From an uncultured Bacteroides sp. (GTDB taxonomy: Bacteria > Bacteroidota > Bacteroidia > Bacteroidales > Bacteroidaceae): a stretch of 64,000 nucleotides of DNA. This document shows positions 2,579-46,877 of the stretch, piece by piece. The notes below the pieces were generated by a model that saw only the letters and a list, made by a program, of their open reading frames with translations, ran no database searches and was not told where the DNA came from. A program made the translations under genes and the position numbers. The stretch covers positions 1 to 64,000 of the forward strand of contig CAMFND010000093.1 in the NCBI GenBank assembly GCA_945965395.1. Reading direction: 5' to 3'. Positions within the stretch are counted from its first letter, which is position 1; every line of letters begins with the position of its first letter.

Positions 2579-3433
2579 TCAGCAAGCCTTGAAACTCATG
2601 TCAAGACCTTTCACAGAATGCGTCAGTGCACCTACAGAAATGTAATCCACTCCACATTCTGCATAGTCACGCAAGGTGTCGAAGGTAATACCGCCTGATG
2701 ACTCCAGTTCCACACGACCTCCAACCATTTCTACGGCCTTGCGTGTATTTTCCGGAGTAAAGTTGTCCAGCATGATGCGGTCTACTCCACCCAGGTCGAG
2801 CACCTGCTGCAATTCGTCGAAGTTGCGCACTTCAATTTCAATCTTCAGGTCCTTTCCTTTTGCCTTGCAATATTCCTTAGCACGCGTGATTGCCTTGTCA
2901 ATTCCTCCAGCAAAGTCCACGTGATTGTCTTTCAGCAAAATCATATCGAACAGACCGATACGATGGTTTACTCCTCCACCGATTTTCACCGCCATCTTTT
3001 CCAGAATACGCATACCTGGAGTTGTCTTACGCGTATCCAGCACGCGAGTCTTTGTACCTTTCAGGCGTTCTACGTATTTGCTGGTCATCGTAGCAATACC
3101 GCTCATACGCTGCATGATATTCAGCATCAGGCGTTCGGTCTGAAGCAAAGACTGAATCTTTCCTTCTACCACCATGGCCACATCACCCGGTTTCACGTGT
3201 GTACCGTCCTGAATGAACACTTCCACCTTCATTTCAGGGTCAAAGCGATGGAACACTTCTTTTGCAATTTCAATACCTGCCAGAATACCTTCTTCCTTAA
3301 TCAGCAGTTTCGACTTGCCCATTGCATCCGCCGGAATGCAAGACAACGTAGTATGGTCACCGTCACCTATATCCTCTGCAAAAGAGAGGTCAATCAGGCG
3401 GTCAATCAAATCCTTTACAATTTTTTCGTCCAT
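2579..3433 (-). CDS. nadC: Nicotinate-nucleotide pyrophosphorylase (carboxylating)
   Basis: AEDIGDGDHTTLSCIP, DTRKTTPGMRILEKMAVKIGGGVNHRIGLFDMILLKDNHV. Start taken at MDEKIVK (3433). Confidence 0.93.
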   Translation of the reverse strand: MDEKIVKDLIDRLIDLSFAEDIGDGDHTTLSCIPADAMGKSKLLIKEEGILAGIEIAKEVFHRFDPEMKVEVFIQDGTHVKPGDVAMVVEGKIQSLLQTERLMLNIMQRMSGIATMTSKYVERLKGTKTRVLDTRKTTPGMRILEKMAVKIGGGVNHRIGLFDMILLKDNHVDFAGGIDKAITRAKEYCKAKGKDLKIEIEVRNFDELQQVLDLGGVDRIMLDNFTPENTRKAVEMVGGRVELESSGGITFDTLRDYAECGVDYISVGALTHSVKGLDMSFKAC

Positions 3434-3466
3434 TTTGTTCAAAATATTAAGTGATATTTCAGGAAG

Positions 3467-3474
3467 CAAAGGTA
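3467..3474 (-). promoter_or_regulatory. Bacteroides -7 promoter box for nadC
   Basis: CAAAGGTA on + strand = TACCTTTG (TAnnTTTG) on - strand. Confidence 0.5.
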
Positions 3475-3485
3475 ATTATTATTCA

Positions 3486-3493
3486 TATCTTTG
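3486..3493 (+). promoter_or_regulatory. Bacteroides -7 promoter box for rlmH
   Basis: TATCTTTG (TAnnTTTG) 36 nt before the rlmH start. Confidence 0.55.
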
Positions 3494-3528
3494 CAAAGGT
3501 AACCCGTTTTAATCAAAGTAAAAAAGAT

Positions 3529-4002
3529 ATGAAATTTACCCTACTTGTGGTCGGCCGGACGGTCGAAAAGCATTATATCACAGCCATCAACGACTATGTG
3601 GAACGTACCAAACACTATGTTTCGTTCGATATGGAGGTGATACCTGAACTGAAGAATACCAAAAGCCTCAGCATGGAGCAGCAGAAAGAAAAGGAAGGCG
3701 AAGCCATCCTGAAAGCCTTGCAGCCCGGCGATGTAGTAGTGTTGCTCGACGAGCATGGAAAAGAATTCCGCTCCATCGAGTTTGCCAACTGGATAGAGCG
3801 GAAAATGCATACCGTAAACAAGCGGCTGGTGTTCATCATCGGCGGACCTTACGGATTCTCTCCTTCCGTCTATCAGGCTGCCCAGGAAAAGATTTCCCTT
3901 TCCAAAATGACATTTTCGCACCAGATGATACGGCTTATCTTCGTGGAACAGCTTTACCGGGCCATGACCATTCTGAATAATGGCCCTTATCACCACGAAT
4001 AA
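3529..4002 (+). CDS. rlmH: 23S rRNA (pseudouridine1915-N3)-methyltransferase
   Basis: MKFTLLVVGRTVEKHY..., VFIIGGPYGFSPSVY, LSLSKMTFSHQMIRLIFVEQLYRA. Start taken at 3529. Confidence 0.93.
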   Translation: MKFTLLVVGRTVEKHYITAINDYVERTKHYVSFDMEVIPELKNTKSLSMEQQKEKEGEAILKALQPGDVVVLLDEHGKEFRSIEFANWIERKMHTVNKRLVFIIGGPYGFSPSVYQAAQEKISLSKMTFSHQMIRLIFVEQLYRAMTILNNGPYHHE

Positions 4003-7789: not shown

Positions 7790-8947
7790 TCACCCTACCA
7801 CATAACGGGCATACTTTCCGGTCAGCCGACGAAGCAGAATCACTAGTCCCCATGATACAAGGAAGGCGATTACCGCAGCAAACGGTATCTGCAATCCGAC
7901 AGGCACGTGACACATACGGGCCAGCACTACGCCCGGACCGGTGAAGAAATAATGAATCATATACACTCCGAAACCGCATACCGTCAGATTGGCAAGGGCT
8001 TTCTGTATTTGCTGATTATTTACACGGACTTTCTTGCAAAGCATGAACAACGGAAGGGTCATCAGCACCACGTTCGGTGAGCAATAGTAGAAGAAAAGTT
8101 CTAGCTGTTCTTCCGTGCAGTCGGGCGATGCAGTCATGTGACGGAAACCGAAGAACGTGACACAGAAACCTACGACAAACATAGGGATTCCCCATCCCAG
8201 TGTTTTTGCCAGACTCCATTCCGTGTGACGGAGATAATGTCCTAACAGCAGATAACCGTTGAATCCGGCAAACATATAGAGCATATAAAACTCGTTCCAG
8301 GAACAGGAACCCCAGATGTAAGGCTCTACAAATTCCCTGTAATAAGGAACAAAAAGCGTCACGCCCCAAGCCACAAGGAACCAGCGCTGTGCTTTCCGGC
8401 TGGCTTTTTCCACCCAGGCAGAAAATACCGGCATGTACAGATACAGCCCGATAAGCAGATAAATGTACCACATGTGCACGTCCAGCAAAGAGAAGTTGAA
8501 CGGCATCTGTGCAATGTATCCCAACGATACATCGAGTGACTGGCGCATCACCTCCTCACCCGAATACGGGAAAAAATCGAGAATGACTTCCGGAGCTACT
8601 CCCAATAAGCCTGTAATCCACGGGAAAAGATTGTAAATGACCGACCAGATAAGGAAAGGCCAGAACACACGCCCGATGCGTTTACGGTAGAACGGAGCCA
8701 CCTCCCCTTTTACCGGCAACAGTAAGGCTCCTGTAATCATTACAAACAAAGGCACACACGGACGAAGCAAGGAACCGTACACGGCACCCCACCACTTGAT
8801 TTCCGCAATATTGGCCGGAGGTTCTCCCGGATAAAAGTTGAACGGGTCTGCCGAATGGCAGCATACTACAGTGAACATGGCTACCAGACGAACCACGTCG
8901 AGCCACACGATGTGTGTTTTTTGAGTAGGATTTAAAGTTGAGTCCAT
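7790..8947 (-). CDS. Integral-membrane acyltransferase, acyltransferase_3 family
   Basis: WLDVVRLVAMFTVVCCHSADPF plus multiple TM helices, typical of the OafA/WecH superfamily. Confidence 0.8.
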   Translation of the reverse strand: MDSTLNPTQKTHIVWLDVVRLVAMFTVVCCHSADPFNFYPGEPPANIAEIKWWGAVYGSLLRPCVPLFVMITGALLLPVKGEVAPFYRKRIGRVFWPFLIWSVIYNLFPWITGLLGVAPEVILDFFPYSGEEVMRQSLDVSLGYIAQMPFNFSLLDVHMWYIYLLIGLYLYMPVFSAWVEKASRKAQRWFLVAWGVTLFVPYYREFVEPYIWGSCSWNEFYMLYMFAGFNGYLLLGHYLRHTEWSLAKTLGWGIPMFVVGFCVTFFGFRHMTASPDCTEEQLELFFYYCSPNVVLMTLPLFMLCKKVRVNNQQIQKALANLTVCGFGVYMIHYFFTGPGVVLARMCHVPVGLQIPFAAVIAFLVSWGLVILLRRLTGKYARYVVG

Positions 8948-9021
8948 AATAACTAACTGATAATTTGAAGATTATACCTATATTTTCAAAATATTCCAAA
9001 GGAGTCCTGACGAACAGAAAA

Positions 9022-9147
9022 AAACGCAAGTGCGTTTCCACAAAAACGTACTTGCGCTTTAAGTAAAACGCCTAAGCGTTTTGATCAAAACGTCCTTGCG
9101 TTTCGGATAAAACGTACTTACGTTTTCTTCCAAACGCAAAGGCGTTT
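9022..9147. repeat. Array of six 16-nt palindromes (AAACGN-N4-NCGTTT), exact 22-bp pitch
   Basis: Units start at 9022, 9044, 9066, 9088, 9110 and 9132, each separated by a 6-nt linker. Confidence 0.95.
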
Positions 9148-21200: not shown

Positions 21201-21286
21201 AGTACTTCCGAAGAAGTACTCCAGTACTGCATAGGGAGTACTCCAGTACTTTCGTGGAAGTACTACAGTACTCCTTAAGAAGTACT
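21201..21286. repeat. Array of four 20-nt AGTACT-armed palindromes, exact 22-bp pitch
   Basis: AGTACT occurs at 21201, 21215, 21223, 21237, 21245, 21259, 21267 and 21281 (strict 14/8 alternation). Confidence 0.97.
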
Positions 21287-43142: not shown

Positions 43143-44198
43143 TTAAAAGGTTTCACTTTCTTTCTCTTTTTTCTCTGCCTGCTGCTGGGCGGTAGAAAGC
43201 ATGCCGCAAGCTGCAAAAATATCTTCTCCGCGTGAAGCGCGAATGGTAGCGAACAAGCCGTGCTGTGTCAGATAATCACGGAAAGCAATCATCGACTCCA
43301 TATCCGTTCCTTCCAGCTCCACGTTCGGGATGGCATGGAAGCGAATCAGGTTCATACGGCAGTCCAGTCCACGGAGCAGTTTCACCAATTCCTTGGCATA
43401 AATCAGGCTGTCATTCACCCCCTTGAACACAATGTATTCAAAAGACAGGCGGCGCTGCTTGCTGAAATCATACCGGCGAAGTATCTCCACCATCTCGGTA
43501 ATGGAGAAAGCTTTTTCTGCCGGCATCAATTCCCTGCGCTGGGAAGGGAAGGGAGAATGCAGGCTGATGGCCAGATGGCAGTCACTTTCTTCCAGGAAAC
43601 GCTCCAGTCCTTTCCGAAGTCCTACGGTAGAAACCGTGATACGCTTCGGGCTCCATTTGTAGCCATAGTCGGCAGTCAGGATTTCCAAGGCACGCAACAC
43701 TTCGTCCAGGTTGTCAAACGGTTCACCCATGCCCATAAATACCACGTTGGTCAGCGTATCCCGTTCCGGCACAGAATAAATCTGATTCAGAATCTGTGCA
43801 GCTGTCAGGCTGGTCGTGTATCCCTGCTTTCCGGTCATACAGAATTTGCAGTTCATCTTGCATCCCACCTGCGACGACACACACAAAGTAGCCCGGTCGT
43901 CATCGGGAATATATACGGATTCTATGTAATCACCTTCGGGCGTACAAAACAAGTATTTCACCGTTCCGTCTATCGAACGCATCTCATGCACCGGCACACT
44001 GGCTCCCACCTCGTAGTTCTCCATCAGCCGCTCACGGTTTTTGAGCGAAAGGTTTGTCATCTCTTCAATAGAGCCTACTTTCTTGTCGTACAGCCACGAT
44101 GCAATCTGTCCGGCAGTAAATTTAGGCATTCCCAAATCCTGCACAATGTTCTTCAGCTCGCCCAATGTTTTACCTAATAAAGGAGTTTTTTTCGTCAT
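43143..44198 (-). CDS. rlmN: Dual-specificity 23S rRNA/tRNA adenosine-C2 methyltransferase
   Basis: CVSSQVGCKMNCKFCMTGKQGY radical SAM motif, VVFMGMGEPFDNLDEVLRA. Start taken at MTKKTPLLGKTL. Confidence 0.94.
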   Translation of the reverse strand: MTKKTPLLGKTLGELKNIVQDLGMPKFTAGQIASWLYDKKVGSIEEMTNLSLKNRERLMENYEVGASVPVHEMRSIDGTVKYLFCTPEGDYIESVYIPDDDRATLCVSSQVGCKMNCKFCMTGKQGYTTSLTAAQILNQIYSVPERDTLTNVVFMGMGEPFDNLDEVLRALEILTADYGYKWSPKRITVSTVGLRKGLERFLEESDCHLAISLHSPFPSQRRELMPAEKAFSITEMVEILRRYDFSKQRRLSFEYIVFKGVNDSLIYAKELVKLLRGLDCRMNLIRFHAIPNVELEGTDMESMIAFRDYLTQHGLFATIRASRGEDIFAACGMLSTAQQQAEKKEKESETF

Positions 44199-44241
44199 AA
44201 CGCTCTTTACTTCTTTCTGCCACAGGTTTTTACCCATTCCC

Positions 44242-44327
44242 AGTCCTCCCTTGTCAGGACTGGAGTACTCCCCCGGAAGTACTGGAGTACTGCCAAGGAA
44301 GTACTAGAGTACTTTCGAGGAAGTACT
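44242..44327. repeat. Array of four 20-nt palindromes (AGTCCT/AGGACT then three AGTACT-armed units), exact 22-bp pitch
   Basis: Unit starts 44242, 44264, 44286 and 44308. Confidence 0.97.
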
Positions 44328-44384
44328 GAGACATTCCCGGTTCCTTAAACGAAAGCACTGCGCATATTCCACATATTTAGCGTA

Positions 44385-44392
44385 CAAAGTTA
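44385..44392 (-). promoter_or_regulatory. -7 promoter box for the rlmN operon
   Basis: CAAAGTTA on + strand = TAACTTTG on - strand. Places the repeat array in the 5' leader. Confidence 0.5.
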
Positions 44393-44415
44393 GGGAAAAA
44401 ATAAGATATATTGCC

Positions 44416-44423
44416 TATCTTTG
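44416..44423 (+). promoter_or_regulatory. -7 promoter box for the GT2/HIT fusion gene
   Basis: TATCTTTG; very short predicted 5' UTR. Confidence 0.5.
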
Positions 44424-44432
44424 TACGTATAA

Positions 44433-46877
44433 ATGCATAAAAATATGAATAACCAAGTAACTTGCTTCCTTTTATACGGAAGTGATAACCAGCAGAATAA
44501 AACTATCAAAGGACTGACGGAGAGTTCCCGAACAGACCAGATATTCCTACTAACTGACCATCCGGAGAACAAAGACATTCCCACGGAGAAATGCCATTTT
44601 CTTCCCTCTTTCTCCTTCCAGCATACCGAAGGCATCCGGCAGATGCTTGCCCTCACCCGCACCCCCTATCTCCTTATTTATACCAAGCCCCACACATTAG
44701 ACATGGGCTACATGGCACTGGAACGCATGTGCGACTATTTAGCCGCACCAGAGTCGGGCATGGTCTATGCCGACCATTATCAGGTGACAGAGGGAGTACG
44801 AAAGCCTCATCCGGTCATCGACTACCAGCCGGGAAGCGTGCGCGATGACTTTGACTTCGGTTCGGTGCTGCTCTTTAAGACGGCTGCCCTGCAGAAAGCG
44901 TTCGACACCATCACCCACCAGCCCGAATACCAGTATTCTGCCTTGTATGCCGTGCGGCTGGCACTTTCACAGAAATACGAACTGACGCACATACGTGAGT
45001 TCCTTTATACCGAAATTGAAGAAGACACCCGCCTGTCGGGCGAAAAACAGTTTGACTACGTGGACCCGCGCAACCGGAGCGTACAACTGGAACGGGAAAC
45101 AGCATTTACTTATTACCTGAAGAACATTCATGCCTTCCTGCCTCCGGTGGAGCGCGAAATCGATTTGTCGGAAGGCGAATTTGCATACGAAGCTTCGGTC
45201 ATCATCCCCGTGCGTAACCGCATCCGTACCATTGCCGACGCCATTGAATCGGTACTGAAGCAGAAAACAGACTTCCTGTTCAACCTGATTGTCATCGACA
45301 ACCATTCTACCGACGGCACCACGGAGTGCATTGACCAATACGCCGGAAACGAGAAAGTGATTCATCTCATTCCCGAACGTGACGATTTGGGCATCGGCGG
45401 ATGCTGGAGCCTGGGTGTGCATCACCCTCTCTGCGGACGCTTTGCCGTACAGCTCGACAGCGACGACCTGTACAGCAGTCCGTCTACCCTCCAGACCATT
45501 GTCGAGAAGTTCCGCCGGGAGCGCTGCGCCATGGTCATCGGCTCTTACCGCATGACCAACTTCCAACTGGAAACATTACCGCCGGGCGTCATCGACCACA
45601 AGGAATGGACCGATACCAACGGACACAACAACGCCCTCCGCATCAACGGACTGGGTGCCCCGCGGGCCTTCTTCACGCCGCTGCTGCGGAAAATCCGTGT
45701 GCCGAACACCAGTTACGGCGAAGATTACGCGTTAGGATTGGCTTTCTCCCGAGAATACCGCATCGGACGTATCTACGACGTACTTTATTTGTGCCGTCGC
45801 TGGGAAGGCAATTCCGACGCGGCACTGAGCATCGAGAAACAGAACCAGAACAACAGCTACAAGGACAGCCTGCGTACCCTGGAAATACGGAAACGCCAGG
45901 CCCTGCTCCGTCACCCTCTTTCATGGGAAGATGCAGCCCCTGCGGCTTCTGCCGAAACCTTTATCCGTCACCAGCTCGACACGTGGCCACTGGCCCGCAA
46001 AAACCACGAAGCACTGGCGCACGTACAGACCCGCACACTTTCACTCGGGACGAACGACATCACTGTGCAGTTCAATCCGGCACGCGCCGTTTCCACCTGT
46101 GCCAAAGTAGATAAGGCTTCCATTGCTGCCCGCCCCTGCTTCCTCTGTCTGAGCCACAAGCCGGAAGAGCAAGAGTCTGTCCGCATCCAGCTGGACGAAC
46201 CTTTCAGCCTGCGACTGAATCCTTACCCCATTCTGCCGGGACACCTCACCATCTCCACGGAAAGTCACCAGTGGCAGACATTAGCCGACAAGACTTCGCG
46301 CCGGTTGCCCGAACGCTTGGTCGACTGGCTGGAGAAGCACTTTGCCAGCGGCTACACCGTGTTCTACAACGGAGCCAAATGCGGTGCTTCTGCCCCCGAC
46401 CACTTCCATTTCCAAGCCGTACGCCAGGAAGATGTGCCCCTCATCCGCCAATGGGAAAAACTGATGAGCACTGCGGTAGAAAAAGGGTTCGAACCCCTCT
46501 CCGACGCCAAGTCCTGCATTGCCTACGACATCGAAGGATACTTCTGTCCGATACGGGCCTTCATCACCCAGGGAGGACTGGCCACTGGTGTACGGCTGAT
46601 TGACAGCTACTTGCACAGCCTGCCCCTGCACGAAGGAGAAACCGAGCCACGCTATAACCTCTTTGCCTGGAACGACCCGCGCTACGGATTTGTCACCGTC
46701 TACATCCCGCGCACAGCCCATCGTCCACAGTGCTACACTGCCGAAGGCGACGCACAGCTGATAGTCAGTCCCGGTGCCCTCGATATGGCCGGCATCCTTG
46801 TGACGGCCCGCAAAGAAGATTTTCAAAAACTGGACGCTGACACGCTCCGCCAAATCTACCACGAAGTAACACATTAA
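44433..46877 (+). CDS. Fusion of GT2-family glycosyltransferase and C-terminal HIT-like nucleotidyltransferase/phosphorylase domain (DUF4922-like)
   Basis: [22 protein letters not shown]...[12 protein letters not shown]...VQLDSDDLY (GT2); CFLC...[17 protein letters not shown]...[20 protein letters not shown] (HIT-like). Start may be 44445. Confidence 0.85.

Follow-up and report, generated by a model that had tools for sequence, protein, structure and literature searches.

Upstream of rlmN in an uncultured Bacteroides sp. lies a tandem array of four short palindromes, located within a 64,000-nucleotide stretch of contig CAMFND010000093.1 (hereafter the window). An earlier note on this DNA had read the array as part of the 5′ leader of the rlmN operon, shaped by selection on a hairpin. 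This raises the question of whether such an array belongs to the gene that it precedes, or to an element that has arrived there from elsewhere. We consider it likely, with a probability of about 0.78, that the array constitutes the core of a short, non-autonomous REP/MITE-like mobile element dispersed in the intergenic DNA of Bacteroidaceae, one copy of which inserted downstream of the rlmN promoter, ahead of the start codon. The features of the window that bear on this question are the following:

44242–44261, + strand: unit 1, AGTCCTCCCTTGTCAGGACT, with compensated arms AGTCCT..AGGACT
44264–44283, + strand: unit 2, AGTACTCCCCCGGAAGTACT, AGTACT arms
44286–44305, + strand: unit 3, AGTACTGCCAAGGAAGTACT, AGTACT arms
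44308–44327, + strand: unit 4, AGTACTTTCGAGGAAGTACT, AGTACT arms
44208–44363: inserted segment of 156 bp, made up of the array with 34-bp and 36-bp flanks and missing from relatives
44235–44237, − strand: extra in-frame ATG, inside 44208–44363 and so borne by the insertion
44345–44358, − strand: degenerate terminal-inverted-repeat motif GTGCTTTCGTTTAA, with 3 mismatches to GCTCTTTCATTTAA
44385–44392, − strand: TAnnTTTG promoter-like box of rlmN, TAACTTTG; CCTAACTTTGTACGCTAA-like sequence is conserved here among many congeners
43143–44198, − strand: rlmN from its native start codon (TIGR00048, 349.5 bits, cut-off 290)
21201–21286, + strand: second AGTACT four-unit array, also occupied in P. plebeius
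9021–9146 (approximate): six-unit array of another word class (AAAACG N6 CGTTTT), period 22

The descriptive part of the earlier reading holds exactly: four 20-nt palindromes, separated by 2-nt linkers, occupy 44242–44327 at a 22-bp period with the sequence claimed, and the array is also detected by Tandem Repeats Finder. The sequence likewise bears out that the two arm changes of unit 1 are mutually complementary, and RNA folds of either strand show this unit as a separate hairpin. The TAnnTTTG box is present on the minus strand, and the downstream operon is composed of rlmN, DUF4837, pdxA, and a nucleotidyl transferase, as had been proposed. Throughout the 3.72-Mb assembly, the pattern AGTACT-N8-AGTACT has 78 matches, as opposed to 0 for its reversed, non-complemented control. 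In 310 kb of the same genome, consisting mostly of stretches chosen for holding arrays, 17 positions exceed the threshold for palindrome triplets at period 22, versus 0 at any of the remaining periods between 15 and 30. A set of 870 kb chosen by the pattern contains 127 period-22 runs and almost none at neighbouring periods; a shuffle of this set yields one run each at three other periods. The imbalance of 78 to 0, together with the period-22 excess, excludes chance as the origin of the array.

The array at 44242–44327 is one of ~20 copies of a small mobile element in this genome. All 16 complete arrays read here possess exactly four units, are spread across many contigs, and are intergenic, save for two overlapped by a crude ORF call. 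Across many genera, 68 of 121 arrays have four units, with three or five found elsewhere, array counts beyond the exact patterns being partial. Where both neighbours were called and no ORF overlaps the array, 31 arrays lie in convergent, 36 in co-directional, and 7 in divergent contexts; in another 26 the crude call places an ORF overlapping the array. The second array of the window (21201–21286) is flanked by co-directional genes. The exact unit is patchily distributed in Bacteroidales, ranging from 0 in all eight sampled congeners through 78 in this genome to as many as 158 in a genome of another genus (G264), and part of this patchiness may reflect sampling, since the close relative B. mediterraneensis carries arrays. 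Viral contigs are nearly devoid of the pattern (1 of 2.9 million IMG/VR contigs), which rejects a phage-borne origin. As for a plasmid-borne one, the two plasmid matches to positions 44100–44460 of the window fall outside the array core. We found no description of these repeats in the open-licence papers searched.

Comparison with relatives exposes the copy at rlmN as an insertion. The flanks of 44208–44363 align gaplessly to P. plebeius DSM 17135 (95–96% identity), B. mediterraneensis, and strain An793, leaving out exactly 156 bp, and the junction without the segment reads CTCTT^ATATTC; these empty-site relatives amount to P. plebeius and two B. mediterraneensis genomes. The same-gene conservation across species expected of a native leader is not seen, the array being absent at rlmN of the closest relatives, and, as dated by these alignments, the rlmN-leader copy is an insertion made after the species split from them. 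Because the conserved promoter-like sequence CCTAACTTTGTACGCTAA lies upstream of the junction, the insertion falls between the promoter and the rlmN start codon. The earlier placement of the array in the rlmN 5′ UTR thus stands as to position, between the conserved box and the start codon, and remains inferential as to transcription: the array is probably transcribed as part of the 5′ leader, which would grow from a few tens of nucleotides to ~180 nt if transcription starts where we infer. The in-frame ATG at 44237 precedes the native ATG at 44198 and would add 13 residues to RlmN. No Rfam family matches within the window at the gathering threshold, and no intrinsic terminator occurs near the array.

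Masked flanks of seven other arrays in this genome were searched in three relatives, and at two of these loci, L111 and L120, P. plebeius has an empty site; the insertions measure ~147–151 bp, and the flank matches overlap on the subject by 6–11 bp. Three arrays, namely, rlmN, L111, and L120, have clean empty sites in relatives. The flanks of L120, TAAATATTTTCCA and TAAATGTTTCCA, likely represent a target duplication, TAAATRTTTYCCA; taken together, target duplications are imperfect, extending over 11–13 bp at L120 and weak at L111 and rlmN. Close variants of GCTCTTTCATTTAA lie inside the L111 and L120 ends, inverted at two ends, and, with one mismatch allowed, the genome contains no copies of this motif other than the two that face each other across the L120 element. 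At three or fewer mismatches it marks 7 of the 32 flanks of the 16 arrays in this genome, 4 of the 7 belonging to the two arrays from which the motif was derived, compared with 0.16% of random stretches of the same genome. At the rlmN copy the motif is degenerate and confined to one side, and no shared flanks beyond this weak end motif are found among the Phocaeicola arrays. Terminal inverted repeats are clear at L120, L111, and the elements of ruminant Bacteroidaceae MAGs, and absent at many copies. In the ruminant MAGs, the four-unit AGTACT array sits amid composite elements (L014 at 3120–3600, L044, L072, L083, L099, and L102) whose long inverted repeats end in CCCTATTGGCGAAAGTTCATAAATCGGTTGGC; the array cores, in order TCCCCGTC, GAGCCGTA, TGGCCTTA, and TGCAAGGA, are position-specific and common to different loci. 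Many arrays are common to sister species, so movement is slow, and orthologous arrays retain their arms but differ in cores and linkers, and gain or lose entire units.

The compensated arms of unit 1 had been taken to favour selection on a hairpin over a fixed binding word. Among 448 units in 121 arrays, all fetched by the AGTACT word such that other words are under-counted, 114 show arm changes, 86 in a single arm and 28 in both, and only 3 of the 114 are fully compensatory. This count rejects per-unit compensation as a rule and leaves the inference drawn from unit 1 weak; judged from these sequences, the arms act largely as a fixed AGTACT word. The fully compensated units include unit 1 of the window and a Prevotella unit with the identical AGTCCT/AGGACT pair, and compensation is slightly above independence (5 versus 2.1 for positions 4–17, and 4 versus 1.6 for positions 6–15). 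At the level of the family, however, the folded array fares better than it does from the window unit alone. The 34 three-unit arrays align as one 28-bp hairpin, units 1 and 3 pairing with each other around a tip formed by unit 2; 86.4% of cells pair, versus at most 48% in slid versions. Changes on both sides affect 99 cells, versus 46.9 in shuffles, and 0 of 500 shuffles reach this value, a count that is not a probability given the relatedness of the sequences; permutation of units within genomes agrees (0 of 2000). Hairpin selection is thus supported for the array family by covariation, which could reflect a transposition substrate, an RNA, or the element's mode of copying, alternatives that look the same in sequence. 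A long hairpin was rejected for the four-unit Phocaeicola arrays, where neither units 1–3 nor units 2–4 exhibit excess core complementarity. Adjacent cores in these arrays are less complementary than permuted ones, as if long perfect palindromes were avoided. The p-values of both comparisons are loose, since orthologous arrays are not fully independent.

AGTACT is not the sole word arranged at this period. The AAACG...CGTTT class numbers 93 pairs of adjacent exact units genome-wide here and 9 and 14 such pairs in two sampled congeners, and two other congeners (L134 and L145) harbor an AAACG-class array in the rlmN leader itself. Other 22-bp repeats occur in the rlmN leaders of L137 and L152. 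On a Porphyromonadaceae contig (L048, ~7880–7990), a period-22 array with CAACTC...GAGTTG-type arms possibly represents a third word class. In other families of the order (G169, G064, and G095), AGTACT recurs at 7-bp spacing in AGTACTA-like heptamer tracts that look unrelated. The 22-bp phase common to different arm words is the most unexpected part of these observations. We tentatively suggest, as a conjecture that may well prove wrong, that Bacteroidales possess mobile palindrome arrays with a rigid 22-bp phase and interchangeable arm words (AGTACT, AAACG/CGTTT, and perhaps CAACTC), copied by non-Y1 machinery whose gauge is either two turns of the helix or a set hairpin length, and repeatedly remodelling 5′ leaders such as that of rlmN.

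The mobile-element reading draws on dispersion, fixed unit number, empty sites, conserved arms, and the covarying long hairpin of the three-unit form. Against it, no mobilising enzyme was found, terminal repeats are recognisable in a minority of copies only, target duplications are imperfect, and the selection that keeps AGTACT could instead mean a host function. The arrays might, for instance, be operator-like sites at which a dimeric DNA-binding protein of the host recognises AGTACT along one face of the helix (22 bp corresponding to two turns) in regulation or chromosome organisation, their copies being kept because the protein uses them. Such sites would accommodate arms that stay near invariant among orthologous arrays as cores change, arm changes that are mostly one-sided, as for a word and not a stem, and the strict 22-bp phase with mostly four units. 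Yet we judge this account unlikely, given an occurrence so patchy that eight of eight sampled congeners lack the unit while another genus holds 158, the lack of a common gene context, and the AAACG class, which would require a second protein with identical phasing. The earlier proposal of a cis-acting structured leader, selected for regulation of the rlmN operon, now appears quite improbable. The location downstream of a conserved promoter box and ahead of the start codon, a fold far better than those of shuffles (z −6.4), and the two congeners with an AAACG array in the rlmN leader speak for it; nevertheless, the closest relatives do without the array, the element resides at many unrelated places in varied gene contexts, and the compensatory unit is an exception, such that a leader specific to this operon is not borne out. 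The inserted copy may still have acquired a regulatory role for rlmN.

Classical REP/BIME sequences, mobilised by the REP-associated Y1 (HUH) transposase or RAYT, are similarly short, dispersed, intergenic palindromes, often clustered and favouring convergent genes, and convergent contexts (31) are commoner than divergent ones (7) among the arrays as well. Unlike REPs, the arrays have a rigid 22-bp head-to-tail phase and a fixed unit number, and their carrier genome is without a Y1 transposase: Y1_Tnp has no match here or in G264, while E. coli and other controls are positive, which takes the classical REP route out of consideration and leaves it with a very slim chance. REPs have terminal GTAG or CGTC tags (PMC3733652); neither was seen by eye in the arrays inspected. 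Among the subset of transposase classes covered in this genome, none was identified with ends matching the element. Replication slippage, duplicating units locally at each site without any mobile element, would explain the whole-unit gains and losses between orthologues, but is scarcely credible in light of an identical arm word and unit number at unrelated loci, the clean insertion of array and flanks together at empty sites, and the position-specific cores common to different loci in ruminant MAGs.

As a mobile element, the array also resembles bacterial MITEs, which are likewise small, non-coding, and dispersed, with clean empty sites and no internal transposase; of the terminal inverted repeats of MITEs, it has clear counterparts at some copies and degenerate or no counterparts at others. 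It departs from them in that most Phocaeicola copies have degenerate ends, conservation lies in the internal 22-bp palindrome array, and no parent IS was found. BrickBuilt is a Bacteroidales MITE of Porphyromonas gingivalis whose internal short tandem repeats fold into stem-loops, an organisation alike to that described here; it has been reported only in P. gingivalis, where one element is named as having as many as 18 full repeats, and its 23-nt repeat AGAYCATARTATCCTCTCRTRTG is unrelated in sequence to our arrays (PMC4596501). The TAACTGA heptamer repeats of Beggiatoaceae, Cyanobacteria, and Bacteroidetes, for which a leader role has been proposed, are likewise intergenic tandem words of patchy distribution, but consist of 7-bp direct repeats without a palindromic 22-bp unit (PMC4679880). 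The element appears mechanistically similar to a REP or a MITE, a likeness that stops short of established membership in either.

In the mobile-element reading, the element would measure ~150 bp and consist of a degenerate terminal inverted repeat, usually four 22-bp AGTACT-arm units, and an inverted terminal repeat. It would spread by movement of the whole, with single units occasionally gained or lost, and a transposase supplied in trans, recognising either the AGTACT arms or the hairpin, would presumably move it. One copy would have entered between the rlmN promoter and start codon in this lineage, lengthening the leader and giving it a very stable fold together with one more in-frame ATG; the leader would then be transcribed with its insert, which might affect rlmN.

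If this is true, a REP/MITE-like class of elements would be added to the major human gut bacteria, with a mobility that does not rest on the Y1 transposases of REPs, and its strict 22-bp phase and switchable arm words would call for a mechanism. The leader of a housekeeping gene such as rlmN can evidently be remodelled between sister species, and the existence of both empty and filled rlmN alleles renders such remodelling directly testable.
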